Part shown: positions 7,665 to 31,655 of the stretch, piece after piece
Layout: every line of letters starts with the position of its first letter
How positions within the stretch are numbered: position 1 is the stretch's first letter
NCBI GenBank assembly: GCA_902810735.1
Contig: CADDYX010000007.1
Span: 1-34,994 of the forward strand
Length of the DNA stretch: 34,994 bases
Direction of reading: 5' to 3'
From: Verrucomicrobiota bacterium
Lineage (GTDB): Bacteria > Verrucomicrobiota > Verrucomicrobiia > Chthoniobacterales > UBA10450
The notes under the pieces: generated by a model
Databases searched by the model: none
What the model saw: only the letters and a program-made list of their open reading frames with translations
Told to the model about the DNA's origin: nothing
Made by a program: the position numbers and the translations under genes

Positions 7665-9797
7665 CTAATTGAGAATCGTATCCGATTGCGCGATCGCCTG
7701 CAGCTGCGTCACGTGCACGAGTGCTGCGCGTGCGTCGGCGGTGCGCCCCATGCGCGAGAGAATGTCGGAAAGCAGCAAGTGCTGGCGCGGGCCATCCGGT
7801 TGCCGGGCCACCGCCCGGCGCTGGATGGTGAGCGCGGCGTCGAGGCGATTTTGTTGGATATCGAGCTGCGCGATCAGGTTGAGCCCTTCGACGCCGTGCA
7901 CATCGAGACGCGCGGCATGGCGAAATTCGGCCTCCGCTTCGCTATAGCGTCCTAGCTCCGAGTAGAGCTTGCCGAGAGCGATTGCTGCGCGCGCATGCCA
8001 CCAGTTCGCCTGCGCGAATTCCTGCACCATCGGCAATGCGGCGGCAGGTCCGTTAAGTTTGCGCACTGCTTCAGACTCGAAGCTAATCAGGTCCCACGTT
8101 CCCGGATATTCCTGTCGCGCCTTGTCGGCGATTGCGATCGCGCCGGCGAGATCTTTCTCGCGCACGTGCATGTGCGCGACGTTCAAAGCGGCCACCCAGG
8201 TGCGCGGGTACTCGTTCCGCGTCCGCTCCGCGATGTCGCTCGCGATTGCGAAGTAGCGATTCCCTTCCTCTTTGCGGCCCTCACGATAAAGGACGTGCGC
8301 GAGCGCATTTACAGCCATCGGATAATCGGGATACGCCTTCACGACGCGGCGCAGCAGCGGCTCGGCAGATTTGTAATCGCCCTTGTTGGCAAGCGCGACG
8401 CCGAGATTCAGTGCGATCCGCGGTTTAGCCGCGCCGGTGGCGAGCGCCCGCCGATAAAAGGTTTCCGGGCTCAGCCAGTCAGCGCTCCGCACAAAGCTGC
8501 GCGCGGTCAGCGCGGCGGTCGCGAGACACGCCACCACTATCGCGCTCTTGCGCACGCGCAACGGCAGTTCCATCACGCATCCGGTGACGAAAATCAGCAG
8601 GCCGACGCTCGGCAGATATAGCCAGTGCTCAGCGACCGTCGCGTTGAGGTCCAGCAGATTTGAGATTGGCAGGAAGCTGACGACGAACCAGGCCGCACCG
8701 AACGCTCGAATCGAGCGCGCCCGTCCAGCTCGCCACGATCCGTAAGCCAGCCCAATGGCGACGAGCAGACCAAGCACCGACAGATACTCGACGCCGATCG
8801 ATTGCCGCCACCCAGCATTTCCGAACGCTGCCCCGGGCGCCTCCACGCTCCGCTCCATGTGCAAAACAGATGGCCAGACCATCAGCCGAGCATAGTCGCC
8901 CAGCGCGCGGAGCATTAGCACCACGCGAGTAACGGCCGGCGACCCGCCGTCACTCATCACGGCAGTGTGCTCAGTCGGCAAGTGACGGAGCGCCGCGTAA
9001 GTGCCGACCGTGACCAGCACGACGCCGAGCACAGCAAATTTGGCGCGCAGCCGAACGTCGCGCTCCAACGAAAAAAGATGAAGCAGAAAAAGAAGAACCC
9101 ACATGCACGCGCTCTCGCGCGAGCCGAGCGCGAGCAAAGTCAACGATGCGGCGCCGCAGTATGCGGCAGACCGCGCGAAGAGGCTGTTAACCCGGCGGCC
9201 GCGCAGGTAGAGCAGCCATGCCCCGCAAGCGAACACACATGCCAGACTGTCGGCCCGACCCGAAATGTAATCGACCGCGGCGCTGTGCACCGGATGTACG
9301 ACCCAGAGCAGCGCGATCAGGAATGCCGCACCCGACCAGTCGCGGCCGCTCGCCTGGTCAAAGCCGGCAGTCGCGGCCGAGCGGGCAGCGAGGTTCGCCA
9401 GCAGCCGGTGGAGCAATGCGTAGAGCAGCAATGCGCCGGAGACGTGCCAGAGAAGATTTGAAATGTGATAGCCCAACGGCTCCCCGCCCCAGACGATGTA
9501 ATCGAGGCAGTAGGAGATGTTTTGAACCGGGCGATAGTGCGTCGCGAACGAATCGAGAAACAGAAAGTGACGGAAGCACTCCAGGATCAGGAGCGGACTC
9601 CGGATCAGCGGATTGTCGCCAACGAGATAATCGTCGTCCCAGATCAGCTGCCCTTGCAGCGCCGGATAACGCGCGATTGCACCGCAAATCACCAGGATTG
9701 CGATCCGCAGCCAGGGCCGGCCCAAATACCACCGCAGCGACCGGGCCGCACTGGCGCCTTTTTCAGTTGATCGGTTATTCGCCGGTGTATCGCTCAT
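7665..9797 (-). CDS. TMTC-like polytopic membrane protein with C-terminal TPRs (probable glycosyltransferase)
   Basis: The 710-residue protein has about ten hydrophobic helices in the first 450 residues and TPR units from about 475 to the end (RIALNLGVALANKGDYKSAE, AIALGKLYSELGRYSEAEAE, HLLLSDILSRMGRTADARA). The first periplasmic loop carries an acidic motif IWDDDYLV (D54-D55-D56) followed by HYRPVQNISYCLDY and YHISNLLWHVSGALLLYALL. This is the pattern of the TMTC/PMT-like GT-C proteins, in which such acidic residues take part in transfer from a lipid-linked sugar. The role is therefore probably O-glycosylation of exported proteins at the inner membrane; donor and acceptor are unknown. It lies downstream of two pilin-like genes on the same strand, so pilin-type proteins are candidate acceptors, but this is inference. 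Confidence 0.75.
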   Translation of the reverse strand: MSDTPANNRSTEKGASAARSLRWYLGRPWLRIAILVICGAIARYPALQGQLIWDDDYLVGDNPLIRSPLLILECFRHFLFLDSFATHYRPVQNISYCLDYIVWGGEPLGYHISNLLWHVSGALLLYALLHRLLANLAARSAATAGFDQASGRDWSGAAFLIALLWVVHPVHSAAVDYISGRADSLACVFACGAWLLYLRGRRVNSLFARSAAYCGAASLTLLALGSRESACMWVLLFLLHLFSLERDVRLRAKFAVLGVVLVTVGTYAALRHLPTEHTAVMSDGGSPAVTRVVLMLRALGDYARLMVWPSVLHMERSVEAPGAAFGNAGWRQSIGVEYLSVLGLLVAIGLAYGSWRAGRARSIRAFGAAWFVVSFLPISNLLDLNATVAEHWLYLPSVGLLIFVTGCVMELPLRVRKSAIVVACLATAALTARSFVRSADWLSPETFYRRALATGAAKPRIALNLGVALANKGDYKSAEPLLRRVVKAYPDYPMAVNALAHVLYREGRKEEGNRYFAIASDIAERTRNEYPRTWVAALNVAHMHVREKDLAGAIAIADKARQEYPGTWDLISFESEAVRKLNGPAAALPMVQEFAQANWWHARAAIALGKLYSELGRYSEAEAEFRHAARLDVHGVEGLNLIAQLDIQQNRLDAALTIQRRAVARQPDGPRQHLLLSDILSRMGRTADARAALVHVTQLQAIAQSDTILN

Positions 9798-9895: not shown

Positions 9896-10294
9896 TTAGT
9901 TGTAAGGCGACCAGAACGAGTCGTCGGTCACGTCGGAGAGCGCAGTTTTAGTGGACGCGGGCACTTTCGGCAGCGAGTCGACGGTCTGCACGCCGTAGTC
10001 GTTCCCGAACAAGTCGGTGCCGGTCGAGTAGAGAGTGGTGTCTTTCTTGAGGTAGTTCGTCCAATCCTGCACGTTCACGGTGGCGCCGCTCGCCTTGGCA
10101 TTCTCGATCGCGTACTGGTCGACGGCTGCGTCGATCAAACGCAGATCATTGATGATCTTCGATGCCTGCGAGCGCTTGCGCGCGCGCAAAAATCCTGGGA
10201 CGGCGATCGCTGCAAGCAGCGCGATGATCGCGACGACGATCATGATTTCAACCAGCGTAAAGCCGGCACGTTTATGATTTAACTTGTTCAACAT
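9896..10294 (-). CDS. Type IV pilin-like / pseudopilin protein, copy 1
   Basis: The 132-residue prepilin has a short basic leader ending in KRAG11 with cleavage before F12. The classic hydrophobic helix follows (FTLVEIMIVVAIIALLAAIAV, with Glu at mature position 5), then GFLRARKRSQASKIINDLRLID. The C-terminal part is small and globular (ends SDVTDDSFWSPYN). No Cys pair is present. This fits the short pilin or type II secretion pseudopilin family of Verrucomicrobiota and relatives; it would be processed by PilD, which is not in this window. The ATG at 10294 is preferred to a TTG at 10300. By eye it matches its neighbour at about 116 of 132 residues, so they are a recent tandem duplication. It has no sigma-54-like site of its own in the 134-base gap and probably depends on the upstream promoter or on a promoter not recognised. 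Confidence 0.93.
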   Translation of the reverse strand: MLNKLNHKRAGFTLVEIMIVVAIIALLAAIAVPGFLRARKRSQASKIINDLRLIDAAVDQYAIENAKASGATVNVQDWTNYLKKDTTLYSTGTDLFGNDYGVQTVDSLPKVPASTKTALSDVTDDSFWSPYN

Positions 10295-10382
10295 GGTCAA
10301 AGGAGACGGGTTCGTTTGGTTTGTTATGTAGTGCGAGCGGCGATTGGCAGGACTGTCGAGTCTTGCGTCTCACAACTCATTC

Positions 10383-10409
10383 CCTGCCACCGGCGACGCC
10401 GGTGACAGG
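10383..10409 (-). terminator. Hairpin between the two pilin-like genes
   Basis: CCTGCCACCGGC and GCCGGTGACAGG form a 12-bp stem with one mismatch around a 3-base loop. It begins 19 bases after the stop codon of the upstream pilin gene. On the minus strand it is followed by GGAATGAG, with no T-run, so it may be an attenuator or an mRNA-stabilising structure rather than a full terminator. Such a structure could set different levels for the two pilin copies. Confidence 0.45.
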
Positions 10410-10428
10410 CGAATGAATCGTCAGATTC

Positions 10429-10827
10429 TTAGTTGTACGGTGACCAGAACGTGTTGTCGGTCACGTCGGAGAGAGCGGTCTTCGTGGAAGCCGGCACTTT
10501 CGGAAGCGAGTCGACGGTCTGTGCGCCGTAGTCGTTGCCGAGGATGTCCTTACCCGTTGAGTAAAGGTTGGTGCCTTTCTTCAGGTAGTTCGTCCAGTCG
10601 GCGGTGTTGACGGTGGCGCCACTCGCCTTGTTGTTTTCGATCGCGTACTGGTCGACCGCGGAGTCGATCAGGCGAAGATCGTTGATGATGCGGCTCGCCT
10701 GGGAGCGTTTACGGGCACGGAGGAATCCGGGCACCGCGATCGCTGCCAACAACGCGATGATCGCAACCACGATCATGATTTCCACGAGGGTGAAGCCCCC
10801 GCGGCGTTTGTTGAGTTTGTTTAACAT
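10429..10827 (-). CDS. Type IV pilin-like / pseudopilin protein, copy 2
   Basis: Like its neighbour this is a 132-residue prepilin: leader MLNKLNKRRGG with cleavage between G11 and F12, mature Glu5, and a hydrophobic helix identical to that of copy 1. The two copies differ mostly in the leader and in the region 66-102 (for example NTADW against NVQDW, GKDILGN against GTDLFGN), and share the C-terminus SDVT..FWSPYN. It is the first gene of a minus-strand series (pilin 2, pilin 1, TMTC-like, panE-like), and a sigma-54-like promoter lies 74 bases upstream of the ATG. Such differences outside the conserved helix would change the exposed surface of the fibre. Whether it forms a pilus or a secretion pseudopilus cannot be told from the sequence. 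Confidence 0.93.
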   Translation of the reverse strand: MLNKLNKRRGGFTLVEIMIVVAIIALLAAIAVPGFLRARKRSQASRIINDLRLIDSAVDQYAIENNKASGATVNTADWTNYLKKGTNLYSTGKDILGNDYGAQTVDSLPKVPASTKTALSDVTDNTFWSPYN

Positions 10828-10900
10828 GTTGTCTGTTCCTAGTTATCTGTTGTTTGTTTGACTGCGTTCCGCGGTACTCGCGGAGGTGACCGTGTTTAAA

Positions 10901-26616: not shown

Positions 26617-28398
26617 ATGCTGAATTTGCGGCTCCGCTTATGCGGTGTTGGATTCGCAGCCGCGGCCACGCTGGCAACGGCTCACGCGCAATCGCCATCT
26701 CCGGCTCCAGCTGATGATGGTCAGTGGACGATGCCCGGCCGCAATTACCAGGCCACGCGCTACAGCGGCCTCGACCAGATCAACACAGGGAACGCGAAAG
26801 ACCTGAAGGTCGCGTGGACGTTCTCGACCGGTGTGAATCGCGGGCACGAAGCGGCGCCACTCGTGGTCGGCGACACGATGTATGTCGTCACGCCGTTCCC
26901 AAACATTCTCTACGCGCTCGACCTGAAGAACGGCGGCGCGGCGAAGTGGAAATACCAGCCGGAGCCTGCGTCAGCGGCGCAGGGCGTGGCGTGCTGCGAC
27001 CTGGTGAACCGCGGGTGCGTGTTTTCGAACGGGAAAATCATTTTCAACACGTTGGACGATCACACGATCGCGGTGGACGCGAACACGGGGAAAGAGATTT
27101 GGAAGACCAAACTCGGCGACATTAACCACGGCGAGACGATCACGATGGCGCCGCTCGTCGTGAAGGACAAAGTTTACGTCGGCAACAGCGGCGGCGAACT
27201 CGGCGTGCGCGGCTGGTTGACGTGCCTCGATTCAAACAGCGGAAAAACTCTGTGGCGCGCGTGGAGCACCGGATCGGACGCGGATTGTCTGATCGGTCCT
27301 GACTTCAAACCGTTCTATAAAAAGGATCAGGGGAAAGAGCTCGGCGTCAGCACGTGGCCGCCGAATCGCTGGCAGATCGGCGGCGGCACCGTATGGGGCT
27401 GGGTGACATACGATCCGGAGTCGAACCTCATCTACTACGGCACGGGGAATCCCGGCGTTTGGAATCCGGAGCTGCGGCCCGGCGACAATAAATGGGCGTG
27501 CAGCATCTTCGCGCGCGATGCCGACACTGGCGCGGCGAAGTGGGCTTACCAGATGAACCCGCACGACGAGTTCGACCACGACGGCATCAACGAAAATCTC
27601 GTGCTCGATCTGCCGATCAATGGCCAGACGCGCAAGGTGCTGCTCGCCGCGCAACGCAACGGCTACGTCTACATGTGGGACCGCACCACCGGCGAAGTCT
27701 TGTCGGCGACGCCGTTCATCCGCATCACCTCGAGCTTTGGCGTTGATCTCAAAACGGGCGAGCTCCACACGAATCCTGAAAAGAAGCCGATGACCGGAAA
27801 GACGGTGCGCGACGTTGCTCCGGCCGCGCCCGGCGCAAAAGATTGGCAGCCGTGCGCATGGTCGCCGCGAACCAATTTGCTCTACATCCCGCACCAGAAT
27901 CTCGCGATGGATTATCAAGGCACGGAAGCGAGTTACATCGAAGGAACTCCCTACCTCGGCGTGAACGTAAAGATGTACGCGAACGGCAACGCCAACCGGG
28001 GCGAGTTCTGCGCGTGGGACCCGTTCCAGAAAAAGAAAGTGTGGGCGATCCAGGAAGATTTGCCGGTCTGGAGCGGCACGGTCGTGACGGCCGGCGACAT
28101 CACGTTTTACGGCACGATGGACGGCTGGTTTAAATGCGTGAACGCCAAAACCGGCGACGTGCTTTGGCAGTTCAAATGCGGCAGCGGCATCATCGGCCAG
28201 CCGGTCACTTACAAAGGACCTGACGGCAAACAATACGTTGCCGTGCTCGCCGGTGTTGGCGGCTGGCCGGGTGCGATCGTGGCCGCCGATCTCGACCCGC
28301 GCGATCCGACCGGTGCGCTCGGTTTTGTGAACGCGATGACCGATCTGCCGCAGAAAACGACCAAGGGCGGCATGCTCTATGTTTTCGCGCTGCCGTAA
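26617..28398 (+). CDS. xoxF: XoxF-type lanthanide-dependent PQQ methanol/alcohol dehydrogenase
   Basis: This periplasmic quinoprotein oxidises methanol (or other short alcohols) to the aldehyde and passes electrons to a cytochrome c. In 593 residues there is a signal peptide (cut after TAHA, residue 24) and an eight-bladed propeller. The vicinal disulfide is C126-C127 (GVACCDLV). Metal ligands are E194 (GGELGVRG), N278 (GTGNPG) and D320, with the second aspartate D322 in DEFD320-H-D322GIN. That D-x-D is the mark of lanthanide-binding enzymes and is lacking in Ca-dependent MxaF. W260 (GGGTVWGW) stacks on PQQ and R347 (QRNG) contacts it. The C-terminal FYGTMDGWFK, GSGIIGQPVTYKGPDGKQYV and GGWPGA are XoxF-typical. 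It leads an array that continues with XoxJ-like and XoxG-like proteins. The exact alcohol range is inferred. Confidence 0.93.
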   Translation: MLNLRLRLCGVGFAAAATLATAHAQSPSPAPADDGQWTMPGRNYQATRYSGLDQINTGNAKDLKVAWTFSTGVNRGHEAAPLVVGDTMYVVTPFPNILYALDLKNGGAAKWKYQPEPASAAQGVACCDLVNRGCVFSNGKIIFNTLDDHTIAVDANTGKEIWKTKLGDINHGETITMAPLVVKDKVYVGNSGGELGVRGWLTCLDSNSGKTLWRAWSTGSDADCLIGPDFKPFYKKDQGKELGVSTWPPNRWQIGGGTVWGWVTYDPESNLIYYGTGNPGVWNPELRPGDNKWACSIFARDADTGAAKWAYQMNPHDEFDHDGINENLVLDLPINGQTRKVLLAAQRNGYVYMWDRTTGEVLSATPFIRITSSFGVDLKTGELHTNPEKKPMTGKTVRDVAPAAPGAKDWQPCAWSPRTNLLYIPHQNLAMDYQGTEASYIEGTPYLGVNVKMYANGNANRGEFCAWDPFQKKKVWAIQEDLPVWSGTVVTAGDITFYGTMDGWFKCVNAKTGDVLWQFKCGSGIIGQPVTYKGPDGKQYVAVLAGVGGWPGAIVAADLDPRDPTGALGFVNAMTDLPQKTTKGGMLYVFALP

Positions 28399-29320
28399 CG
28401 CCGGTGCTGTAGCATCCGCTGTCCTCAGCGGAATTCCGTTCAGCTCGAATGCGCTGAGGACAGCGCACTCTACAGCGGTCATTCTCATTTCCTGCGTCGC
28501 AAGCGCCGCATTCGCGCAGCAGGATTGTTGCGTCGGGCTTCAAGAGCCCGCGCCGGCAAACGCGAAGCGCATCCTGCGGATCACTTCCGATCCGAACAAT
28601 CTGCCGTTCTCAAACGAGAAGCGCGAAGGATTCGAAAACAAAATCGCGGAGCTGGTCGCGAAGGAGCTCGGCGCCGAAATCCAATACTCGTGGCGAGCGC
28701 AACGCCGCGGATTTTTTCGCGAGACGCTCAAGGAGAATCGCGCCGATCTCGTGCTCGGCGTGCCGGCGCATTTCGACATGGCGCTGACGACCCAGCCTTA
28801 CTATCGCTCGAGCTACGCGTTCGTTTATCGCAAGGACCGCAACCTGCACATCGGCTCGCTCGACGACCCCCAACTGCGGAAGCTCAAGATCGGTGTCGAG
28901 ATGATCGGAAACGACGGCCGCAACACGCCGCCCGCGCACGCGCTCGGCGATCGCGGAATCATCGACAACGTCGTCGGCTACACCGTTTACGGAGATTACT
29001 CGCAGGCGAATCCGCCGGCGCGCGTGATCGATGCCGTGGCGCGCGGCGACATCGACGTGGCGATCGCGTGGGGACCGCTGGCCGGTTATTTCGCGAAACG
29101 CGCGGGCGTGCCGCTCGAAGTGGTGCCGGTCACGCCCGCGGCCGATCCGAATTTGCCGTTCACGTTCGCGATCGCGATGGGCGTCCGCAAAGGCGACAAG
29201 CAGTTGCAGAACGAACTGAACGCGGCCCTGGCGCGCAAACGCGCGGAGATCGACAAAATTCTCGACGAATACGGCGTGCCGCGTGTTCCAGATCCACCGA
29301 AGCAGGTCGCGACGAAATGA
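28379..29320 (+). CDS. xoxJ: XoxJ-like periplasmic binding protein with a REP-derived leader
   Basis: The 313-residue protein has the two-lobed periplasmic solute-binding fold of quinoprotein-dehydrogenase-associated proteins (XoxJ/MxaJ type): RILRITSDPNNLPFSNEKREGFENKIA, ADLVLGVPAHFDMALTTQPYY, KIGVEMIGNDGRNTPPAHALG and DIDVAIAWGPLAGYF. XoxJ is thought to help load or activate XoxF. The signal peptide is VILISCVASAAFA, cut before QQD, but it is preceded by 33 residues. The only in-frame ATG/GTG/TTG is the ATG at 28379, inside the xoxF 3' end, so residues 10-33 are translated from a REP element (28406-28476). An unusually long N-region of this kind is odd for a Sec signal. The stop overlaps the cytochrome gene (ATGA). 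Confidence 0.85.
   Translation: MFSRCRNAGAVASAVLSGIPFSSNALRTAHSTAVILISCVASAAFAQQDCCVGLQEPAPANAKRILRITSDPNNLPFSNEKREGFENKIAELVAKELGAEIQYSWRAQRRGFFRETLKENRADLVLGVPAHFDMALTTQPYYRSSYAFVYRKDRNLHIGSLDDPQLRKLKIGVEMIGNDGRNTPPAHALGDRGIIDNVVGYTVYGDYSQANPPARVIDAVARGDIDVAIAWGPLAGYFAKRAGVPLEVVPVTPAADPNLPFTFAIAMGVRKGDKQLQNELNAALARKRAEIDKILDEYGVPRVPDPPKQVATK
28406..28476. repeat. REP doublet 1 (BIME-like), between xoxF and the XoxJ signal peptide
   Basis: A 71-bp imperfect inverted repeat beginning GCTGTAGC and ending CTACAGC. The left half carries the inner hairpin TCCGCTGTCCTCAGCGGA (type a). The right half, read in reverse, carries GCGCTGTCCTCAGCGC (type b). It begins 7 bases after the xoxF stop and is read through in frame by the xoxJ reading frame. 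It has the same a-then-b order as doublet 2. Confidence 0.93.
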
Positions 29321-29871: not shown

Positions 29872-29972
29872 GCGCTCACCGCTGCTGTAGCGTCCGCTGT
29901 CCTCAGCGGATCCCTCGGATACGGCGATCGCACAATGCGCTGAGGACAGCGCACTCTACAGCAGTCGAATGA
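29868..29972 (+). other. Open frame crossing REP doublet 2 and ending on the coxB start codon
   Basis: A GTG at 29868 overlaps the xoxG stop codon (GTGA). It opens 34 codons that cross the whole of doublet 2 and stop at a TGA (29970-29972) overlapping the coxB ATG (ATGA). The product would begin with V/M-SAHRCCSVRCPQR. It is reported as a possible coupling frame or as a relic of the former xoxG/coxB junction, not as a functional protein. Confidence 0.45.
29884..29962. repeat. REP doublet 2 (BIME-like), between the cytochrome gene and coxB
   Basis: A 79-bp head-to-head pair: the left half GCTGTAGCG with inner hairpin TCCGCTGTCCTCAGCGGA (type a), a central spacer of about 25 bases, and a right half which in reverse reads GCTGTAGAG then GCGCTGTCCTCAGCGC (type b). 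It starts 12 bases after the xoxG-like stop and ends 6 bases before the coxB ATG, so coxB has no room for a Shine-Dalgarno outside the repeat. Confidence 0.95.
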
Positions 29973-30964: not shown

Positions 30965-30976
30965 TTCACTCACCGT

Positions 30977-31040
30977 GCTGTAGCGTGCGTTGTCCTCAGC
31001 GCAGTTGCGCGGAGTCCGCTGAGACAGCGGACGCTACAGC
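30977..31040. repeat. REP doublet 3 (BIME-like), left flank of the RAYT gene
   Basis: A 64-bp head-to-head pair starting 21 bases after the coxB stop. The order is opposite to doublets 1 and 2. The left half is type b (GCTGTAGCGTGCGTTGTC then CTCAGCGCA), and the right half is type a in reverse (TCCGCTGAGACAGCGGACGC), with one base missing in the TCCT loop. This is the most degenerate of the four copies. Confidence 0.93.
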
Positions 31041-31059
31041 ATCGGTCGGCAGCACAGCG

Positions 31060-31566
31060 TCACGCGCGATCGATTACGACGATTTCGCCTGCGTACGGCC
31101 AATCGTCGGCTTGTCTCACAACCCCCGCGCGCACGGGATTGTCGCGCACGTAGTTCCATTTCTCTCGATAGCTCTCGTCGCTCCGCAGCAAGTGGTCGTG
31201 AAATCCAGGTTGCCAGAACGAGCGCAGCTTCTGGCCAGCCATGGCACCCGCGCACTGAGCGGCAGCTCTGAGCGGCACGTCCAAATGCCGCTTCAGACCT
31301 TTAACCCAGTCGCTCAGCCTGACACGGCTTCCGACGCCGAGTCTGACAAACAAATGGACGTGGTCGGGCATGATGACGTAGCGGCCGACCGCCATTTCGA
31401 ACTCAGACGCGCGCCGGCAATACTCAACGAAAGCACGGTGCACTTCATCAGTGGCAAGGAATCGCTGCCGCTGAAACGTATTGAAGGTCACGAAGAAGAG
31501 CGGCGCGTTGAAACGCTGAAAAATCAGCCCGAGCCGCGGCGGTTTACCCTTAACTTTCCGCTGCAC
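31060..31566 (-). CDS. REP-associated tyrosine transposase (RAYT, Y1_Tnp/IS200-like)
   Basis: The 168-residue protein, counted from a GTG at 31566, has the Y1 transposase fold. H69-V-H71 is in MPDHVHLFVRLG, the HUH metal site. Further on come LKRHL, SFWQPGFHDHLLRSDESY and Y139 in KWNYVRDNPVRAGVV, the catalytic tyrosine helix typical of RAYTs and distinct from the insertion-sequence IS200 group. It would nick single-stranded REP hairpins. The frame continues upstream through doublet 4 without a good start, so the GTG right after the repeat is chosen. It is flanked by REP doublets on both sides, as is usual for this family, and lies antisense to the cox genes. It appears intact. The exact start is uncertain by a few codons. 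Confidence 0.9.
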   Translation of the reverse strand: MQRKVKGKPPRLGLIFQRFNAPLFFVTFNTFQRQRFLATDEVHRAFVEYCRRASEFEMAVGRYVIMPDHVHLFVRLGVGSRVRLSDWVKGLKRHLDVPLRAAAQCAGAMAGQKLRSFWQPGFHDHLLRSDESYREKWNYVRDNPVRAGVVRQADDWPYAGEIVVIDRA

Positions 31567-31573
31567 GACGACC

Positions 31574-31641
31574 GTTGTAGCGTGCGCTGTCCTCAGCGCA
31601 TATCGGATTTTCGTTCCGCTGAGGACAGCGGACGCTACAGC
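31574..31641. repeat. REP doublet 4 (BIME-like), right flank of the RAYT gene
   Basis: A 68-bp head-to-head pair in b-then-a order: the left half GTTGTAGCGTGCGCTGTCCT followed by CAGCGCA, and the right half in reverse GCTGTAGCG with the hairpin TCCGCTGTCCTCAGCGGA. It lies 8 bases upstream of the RAYT start and 14 bases before the coxA Shine-Dalgarno. With doublet 3 it brackets the transposase. Confidence 0.95.
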
Positions 31642-31655
31642 ACGTCTCGCGCGAC

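Follow-up and report, generated by a model that had tools for sequence, protein, structure and literature searches.

In the verrucomicrobial DNA analysed here, a stretch of 34,994 nt referred to as the window, the gene for the periplasmic binding protein XoxJ starts within the 3' end of xoxF, and its open frame runs on through a REP doublet. It is probable that xoxJ is read from its old ATG at 28379 and that the inserted REP is translated in frame as an extension of the signal-peptide n-region. This reading draws on features taken directly from sequence, namely the start codon and open frame, the repeat and transposase, the start class conserved among relatives and the recurrence of repeats at the junction.

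The xoxF/xoxJ junction and its REP doublet

The window is contig C7 of a 3.01 Mb genome assembled in 310 contigs; its tetranucleotide composition fits that genome, the last 9 kb slightly less well (mean r 0.66 vs 0.75 among the genome's own contigs). The xoxF gene (26617-28398, plus strand) encodes a PQQ-dependent methanol-dehydrogenase-type protein (TIGR03075, 633.7 bits, cut-off 480). At 27560-27600 its product carries the sequence PHDEFDHDGIN, which includes the extra Asp of lanthanide-type methanol dehydrogenases. The xoxJ gene (28379-29320, plus strand; TIGR03871, 310.5 bits, cut-off 212) encodes a domain that is intact and full length against its profile, and the closest solved structure is that of XoxJ in 6ONP.

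A start at ATG 28379 gives an overlap of 20 nt with xoxF. The open frame of xoxJ begins at 28340 and, as the original prediction had claimed, contains no other ATG, GTG or TTG ahead of the mature domain; the only near-cognate codons in frame there are ATT 28433, CTG 28454, ATT 28481 and ATT 28487. Within xoxF codons, a Shine-Dalgarno-like sequence, AAGGGCGG, is located at 28363-28370 (plus strand); the match is poor, weaker than the GGAG of relatives.

The doublet, of the GTAG type, occupies 28406-28476 (plus strand; 71 nt) inside the xoxJ frame. Its two arms (28406-28430 and 28452-28476) are 25 nt each, 88% complementary and separated by 21 nt, and GTAG stands next to a short palindromic stem, GCTGTAG being followed by CCGCTGTCCTCAGCGG (28406-28432). 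The strand folds far better than its shuffles (z -5.2 as DNA, -5.4 as RNA). The whole insert between the flanks measures 78 nt, a multiple of three, and is stop-free; frame and translation place the doublet at residues 10-33 of the XoxJ precursor, in agreement with the original prediction. Behind it lies the hydrophobic region of XoxJ itself, VILISCVASAAFA (28478-28516, plus strand), with a likely cleavage site AFA/QQ assigned by eye on the translation. The composite leader, MFSRCR...LRTAHSTA-VILISCVASAAFA-QQ, resembles a Sec signal peptide, with a basic n-region, an uncharged h-region and small residues at -3 and -1, on visual inspection and under a crude hydropathy rule that missed one element-free homologue (L029). 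Removal of the element would leave the leader MFSRCRNA-ILISCVASAAFAQQ, which looks like an ordinary signal peptide; the window REP would only lengthen the n-region.

REP units are arranged as inverted dimers at four sites in the window. Besides the doublet in xoxJ, one is situated between a cytochrome c gene and coxB (29879-29966), one between coxB and a transposase gene (30972-31046) and one between the transposase gene and coxA (31569-31646). Since 13 of the 24 frames across these four doublets lack a stop, an open frame through a doublet is unremarkable on its own. The transposase gene (31060-31551, minus strand, coordinates assuming a GTG start) encodes a REP-associated tyrosine transposase, RAYT (NF047646, 103.7 bits, cut-off 80; PF01797, 29, cut-off 23), and is bracketed by doublets on both sides; together, RAYT and the flanking doublets (30972-31646) lie between coxB and coxA of a cytochrome oxidase operon. 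The REP core is matched eight times in the window against 0.72 expected, one of the matches (10962) being a two-mismatch hit away from the doublets, and six of seven core matches in the window's own genome fall in the window. Among 83 genomes of the same bacterial family, the exact core was found in 34, with up to 34 copies per genome, and the reversed core, used as a control, in none. The source of the REP is probably the RAYT encoded 2.6 kb downstream, by way of a presumed transposition.

Other repeats were noted in passing. Direct repeats 261 and 132 nt long, spaced by 533 nt and 82% and 75% identical, occur in the window at 9896-10828. On contig C26 of G000, near 759, a degenerate REP core lies in frame within a 782-codon frame (LTGKAVVSAPADVPLRTAASAV) that is pheT-like by eye. 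On contig C16 of G000, at 8203-8278, a different short inverted repeat (GGGAAGCTG type) flanks the start of what is, by eye, a CtaA/Cox15-like gene, its second arm lying within the coding region; no additional copy was found in 421 kb.

Starts and repeats at the junction in other bacteria

XoxJ was present in only one of 58 genomes searched as relatives, the window's own, and because the other 57 lack it the comparison uses more distant bacteria, among which there is no close element-free relative. The nearest named homologue, from Verrucomicrobia bacterium AV119 (L020), is 62% identical. The set comprises 30 loci in which xoxF immediately precedes xoxJ (27 distinct loci plus the window, L002 and L026); XoxJ matches that lacked an adjacent xoxF, were partial or scored below the family cut-off were dropped (L003-L007, L015-L019, L021, L022, L027, L028, L030-L032, L036, L066, L075-L092 and L095-L101). 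In 18 of the 30 loci the xoxJ start lies within xoxF or coincides with the xoxF stop, and in the other 12 (L008-L014, L033-L035, L065, L068) it apparently lies at least 20 nt after the stop. The xoxF-end starts of the 18 overlapping junctions are all ATG or GTG: 11 are internal ATG codons at -17 to -26 of the xoxF stop, six are ATGA and one is GTGA. A GGAG placed as a Shine-Dalgarno sequence lies in the xoxF codons of 9 of the 11 internal-start loci.

Six of these 11 loci (L002, L024, L029, L072, L073, L074) carry no element, and their leaders measure 22-53 residues to the conserved motif, compared with 65 in the window. The comparison of XoxJ N-termini proposed in the original prediction thus finds internal starts both with and without an element, and at least L024, at 53 residues, combines the same type of start with a long leader of unrelated sequence, the case that the original prediction had named as its own refutation. 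Since element-free relatives have the same internal start class, the start at the xoxF end is, on this comparison, ancestral and older than any insertion, so that neither a shifted start nor a rare start codon is required. An upstream shift caused by the insertion, one horn of the dilemma posed in the original prediction, is rejected on account of the same six relatives. What stands of that prediction is the REP in the leader itself, which is inside the open frame and so in the precursor if translation starts at 28379.

A repeat or palindrome lies 3' of the xoxF stop in 8 of the 18 overlapping junctions, each of which preserves an uninterrupted, in-phase xoxJ frame reaching back to its start at the end of xoxF. 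Besides the REP doublet of the window, the elements at these junctions are a palindrome, CCACGAATAAACACGA, in Acidobacteria 5-1 (L026, genome G414), a looser pattern of which was matched 12 times in the genome; a GGCAGAAGGC palindrome (L064, G700), whose pattern was matched 235 times in G700; a repeat (L069, G767) with matches in 5 of 20 sampled stretches; a tandem repeat (L071, G683) with matches in 5 of 14 stretches; a palindrome in L020 (G413) and its relative L093 (G992); and a palindrome after the xoxF stop of L063 (G611, minus strand). No other copy of the L063 palindrome was found in 116 kb of G611, nor a second copy of the L020 palindrome in 52 kb of G413; a repeat similar to the latter has exact matches in 12 of 147 genomes of its order, neither G413 nor G992 being one of the 12. 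At L063, the XoxJ reading frame runs without a stop for 174 codons from its start in xoxF, across the palindromic DNA. Three loci (L026, L069 and L063) have an in-frame ATG or GTG within or after the insert, yet the frame back to xoxF is kept; from the stop to the motif, mononucleotide shuffles stayed open at frequencies of 0.006, 0.026 and 0.002, respectively. Unrelated repeats would appear, from these junctions, to have been captured repeatedly by the XoxJ leader in other bacteria.

A strict inverted-repeat cut-off was passed by 4 of the 18 xoxF/xoxJ junctions and by 48 of 678 other junctions (Fisher p 0.039), a background that is high because the 678 were drawn from element-carrying genomes, and by 1 of 18 junctions after xoxJ (p 0.34 vs xoxF/xoxJ). 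An insertion hotspot at the xoxF/xoxJ junction is weakly supported.

Further repeats were observed outside this set of eight. In L009-L014, from genomes that are presumably Methylacidimicrobium-like, a GGGCGGAC/GTCCGCCC hairpin is situated in the first codons of a long frame containing xoxJ; its fold is modest in L010 (z -2.3). In L023, tandem units of the GCGATGGTG type upstream of 4034 encode part of the hydrophobic stretch of XoxJ (PAMVPAMVSAMV).

We propose that the xoxJ start lay within the end of xoxF before any insertion and that a REP doublet, probably mobilised by RAYT, was inserted a few bases past the xoxF stop; REPs usually stand just after stop codons (PMC3733652). Because the xoxJ start lies upstream of the insertion point, the element would be read in frame as extra n-region residues. 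Export should persist, since XoxJ keeps its own h-region and cleavage site, and long signal-peptide n-regions are tolerated. The overlap would act as a trap that turns DNA landing past the xoxF stop into XoxJ leader, and a palindrome with a purine-rich first arm could supply both the basic n-region and the hydrophobic h-region alone. We infer the RAYT-driven insertion, the translation of the element, and the export and cleavage of the product.

The alternative that survives best, although we rate it as rather unlikely, is that the hairpin is kept for the RNA, guarding the xoxF mRNA against 3' decay or reducing xoxJ expression, with translation as a by-product. The malE-malF REP is reportedly a precedent for such a role, and the RNA folds at the junction are strong, with z values of -8.1 in L020, -10.9 in L026 and -11.9 in L064 beside the -5.4 of the window. 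The usual position of REPs just past stop codons (PMC3733652) fits it as well. However, 10 of the 18 junctions have no recognised repeat or palindrome, the tandem repeat of L071 does not fold (z +2.3), and in L093 the fold is mostly lost (z -2.6) while the leader is kept; an RNA role is, moreover, compatible with translation and does not exclude it.

Translation from the CTG at 28454 within the repeat, or from an ATT, is much less probable. The original prediction had named this CTG as a rare start codon that might be needed; it shares the xoxJ frame, and the resulting signal peptide, LRTAHSTAVILISCVASAAFA, would be of usual length and contain a single Arg, with the first arm left untranslated. 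Yet it has no Shine-Dalgarno-like sequence before it and sits in a hairpin arm, a start codon (ATG or GTG) lies at the end of xoxF in every one of the 18 overlapping junctions, and openness and frame are maintained even where internal ATG or GTG codons exist. Least probable of all is a misassembled junction or a gene in decay. Although the draft is fragmented and repeats are prone to misassembly, the XoxJ domain is full length, the frame is exact across the doublet, the loops differ among the doublets at the four sites and the composition resembles the rest of the genome.

Palindromes as candidate signal peptides

In G700 and in the G413/G992 pair, the palindrome itself is predicted to encode a basic n-region and a hydrophobic h-region. 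The first arm in L020 translates as MNSPRRTRGSRR and the second as LFVLVVFVLFVV; the leader of L064 reads MKKAEGRRQKAEVRSGAWRVRHILSHFCLLPSAFCLLLFSC. Between L093 and L020 the leader aligns without gaps at 57% protein identity, compared with 79% for the mature part, and the palindrome score is 9 in L093 against 14 in L020, with the basic and hydrophobic parts retained. As 11 of 37 second codon positions differ, the leader is not strongly conserved; it looks as though the inserted palindrome has been retained for its peptide, though two sequences prove little.

A census of 388 kb sampled from G700 gave 29 candidate frames, 17 of which were listed; many resemble shadow frames, and only named genes are relied on. 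A sulfatase with TPR repeats (L105, 16145) has a similar leader, MKTENAERRTQNAERRNWSHTHSSFFALRSAFCVLLCLALVSC, as does a YfhO-like membrane protein (minus strand, L114); in each case the gene begins where a long upstream frame ends, and the next start codon is at least 80 codons away. Less certain are L115, where translation could also start at residue 6 or 17 and Pfam gives no match, and L106, a peptidase M23 with alternative starts at residues 5-33. In the second L105 case (13899), the palindrome supplies the n-region only.

Simulation ruled out palindromy alone as a general maker of signal peptides: the signal-like share of open frames was 0.0077 for unbiased palindromes and 0.0132 for random sequence at GC 0.45, and 0.0033 and 0.0069 at GC 0.60. 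Purine-rich DNA tends to encode basic or polar residues and pyrimidine-rich DNA hydrophobic ones, and for this reason purine-first inserts are much more frequently signal-like than inserts of the opposite order (simulated palindromes: 0.056 vs 0.0006 at GC 0.45; 0.0115 vs 0.0007 at GC 0.60). Non-palindromic purine-first sequence scored higher still (0.103 at GC 0.45, 0.029 at GC 0.60). Since the order of a palindrome is the same on both strands, a purine-first family is purine-first in either orientation. The first arm of the window REP is 45% purine and not of this type; under the crude hydropathy rule, the elements of G000, G414 and G767 are signal-like in none of their three frames and so only extend the n-region.

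We tentatively hypothesize, as a possibility that may well prove wrong, that dispersed purine-first palindromes are ready-made signal peptides on either strand, with the first arm giving a basic n-region and the pyrimidine-rich second arm a hydrophobic h-region, and that their insertion at an overlapping start could replace an export leader in one step, with XoxJ as the clearest case and several genes in G700 as others. It is a similarly speculative part of this proposal that the h-region of the second arm is sometimes followed by a lipobox-like cysteine.

Significance and relation to known systems

The proposed reading accounts for the odd xoxJ start and presents short mobile repeats turning into protein. 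It suggests a concrete route to new or substituted export signals in bacteria, through insertions where adjacent genes overlap, and it carries a warning for annotation: leaders should not be trimmed on the assumption that a repeat is non-coding. A literature search, with most subscription journals outside its scope, returned no description of repeats in XoxJ leaders or of purine-first palindromes as signal peptides. The overlap start that is older than the insertion, the recurrent capture of repeats by the XoxJ leader and the candidate role of purine-first palindromes as whole signal peptides appear to be new, while translated REPs and a MITE serving as part of a signal peptide are already published.

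As described in PMC3733652, GTAG REP/RAYT REPtrons share with the window the GTAG beside a palindromic stem, the inverted dimers, the REP-flanked transposase and the position just past stop codons, and they include a verrucomicrobium with the species epithet terrae. The same paper doubts many N-terminal REP translations, where a downstream start is possible; XoxJ differs from such cases in having no downstream ATG, GTG or TTG and a start class common to element-free relatives. PARCEL, the palindromic amphipathic coding repeats of PMC2996958, likewise tie palindromic coding DNA to membrane proteins; they form tandem 25-residue protein domains and not leaders. The xoxJ frame, open through the element, amounts to an in-frame insertion in a conserved protein gene and resembles in this the Rickettsia palindromic elements, as represented in PMC2229807. 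It differs in its non-Rickettsia host, its presumably cleavable leader and its assignment to GTAG REPs. Another parallel is the published MITE, likewise small, palindromic and mobile, which is translated in frame within a signal peptide, in that case of a putative exported protein. XoxJ, in contrast, is a conserved protein of a known system, in which unrelated repeats occur in several phyla and the overlapping start would be the cause.
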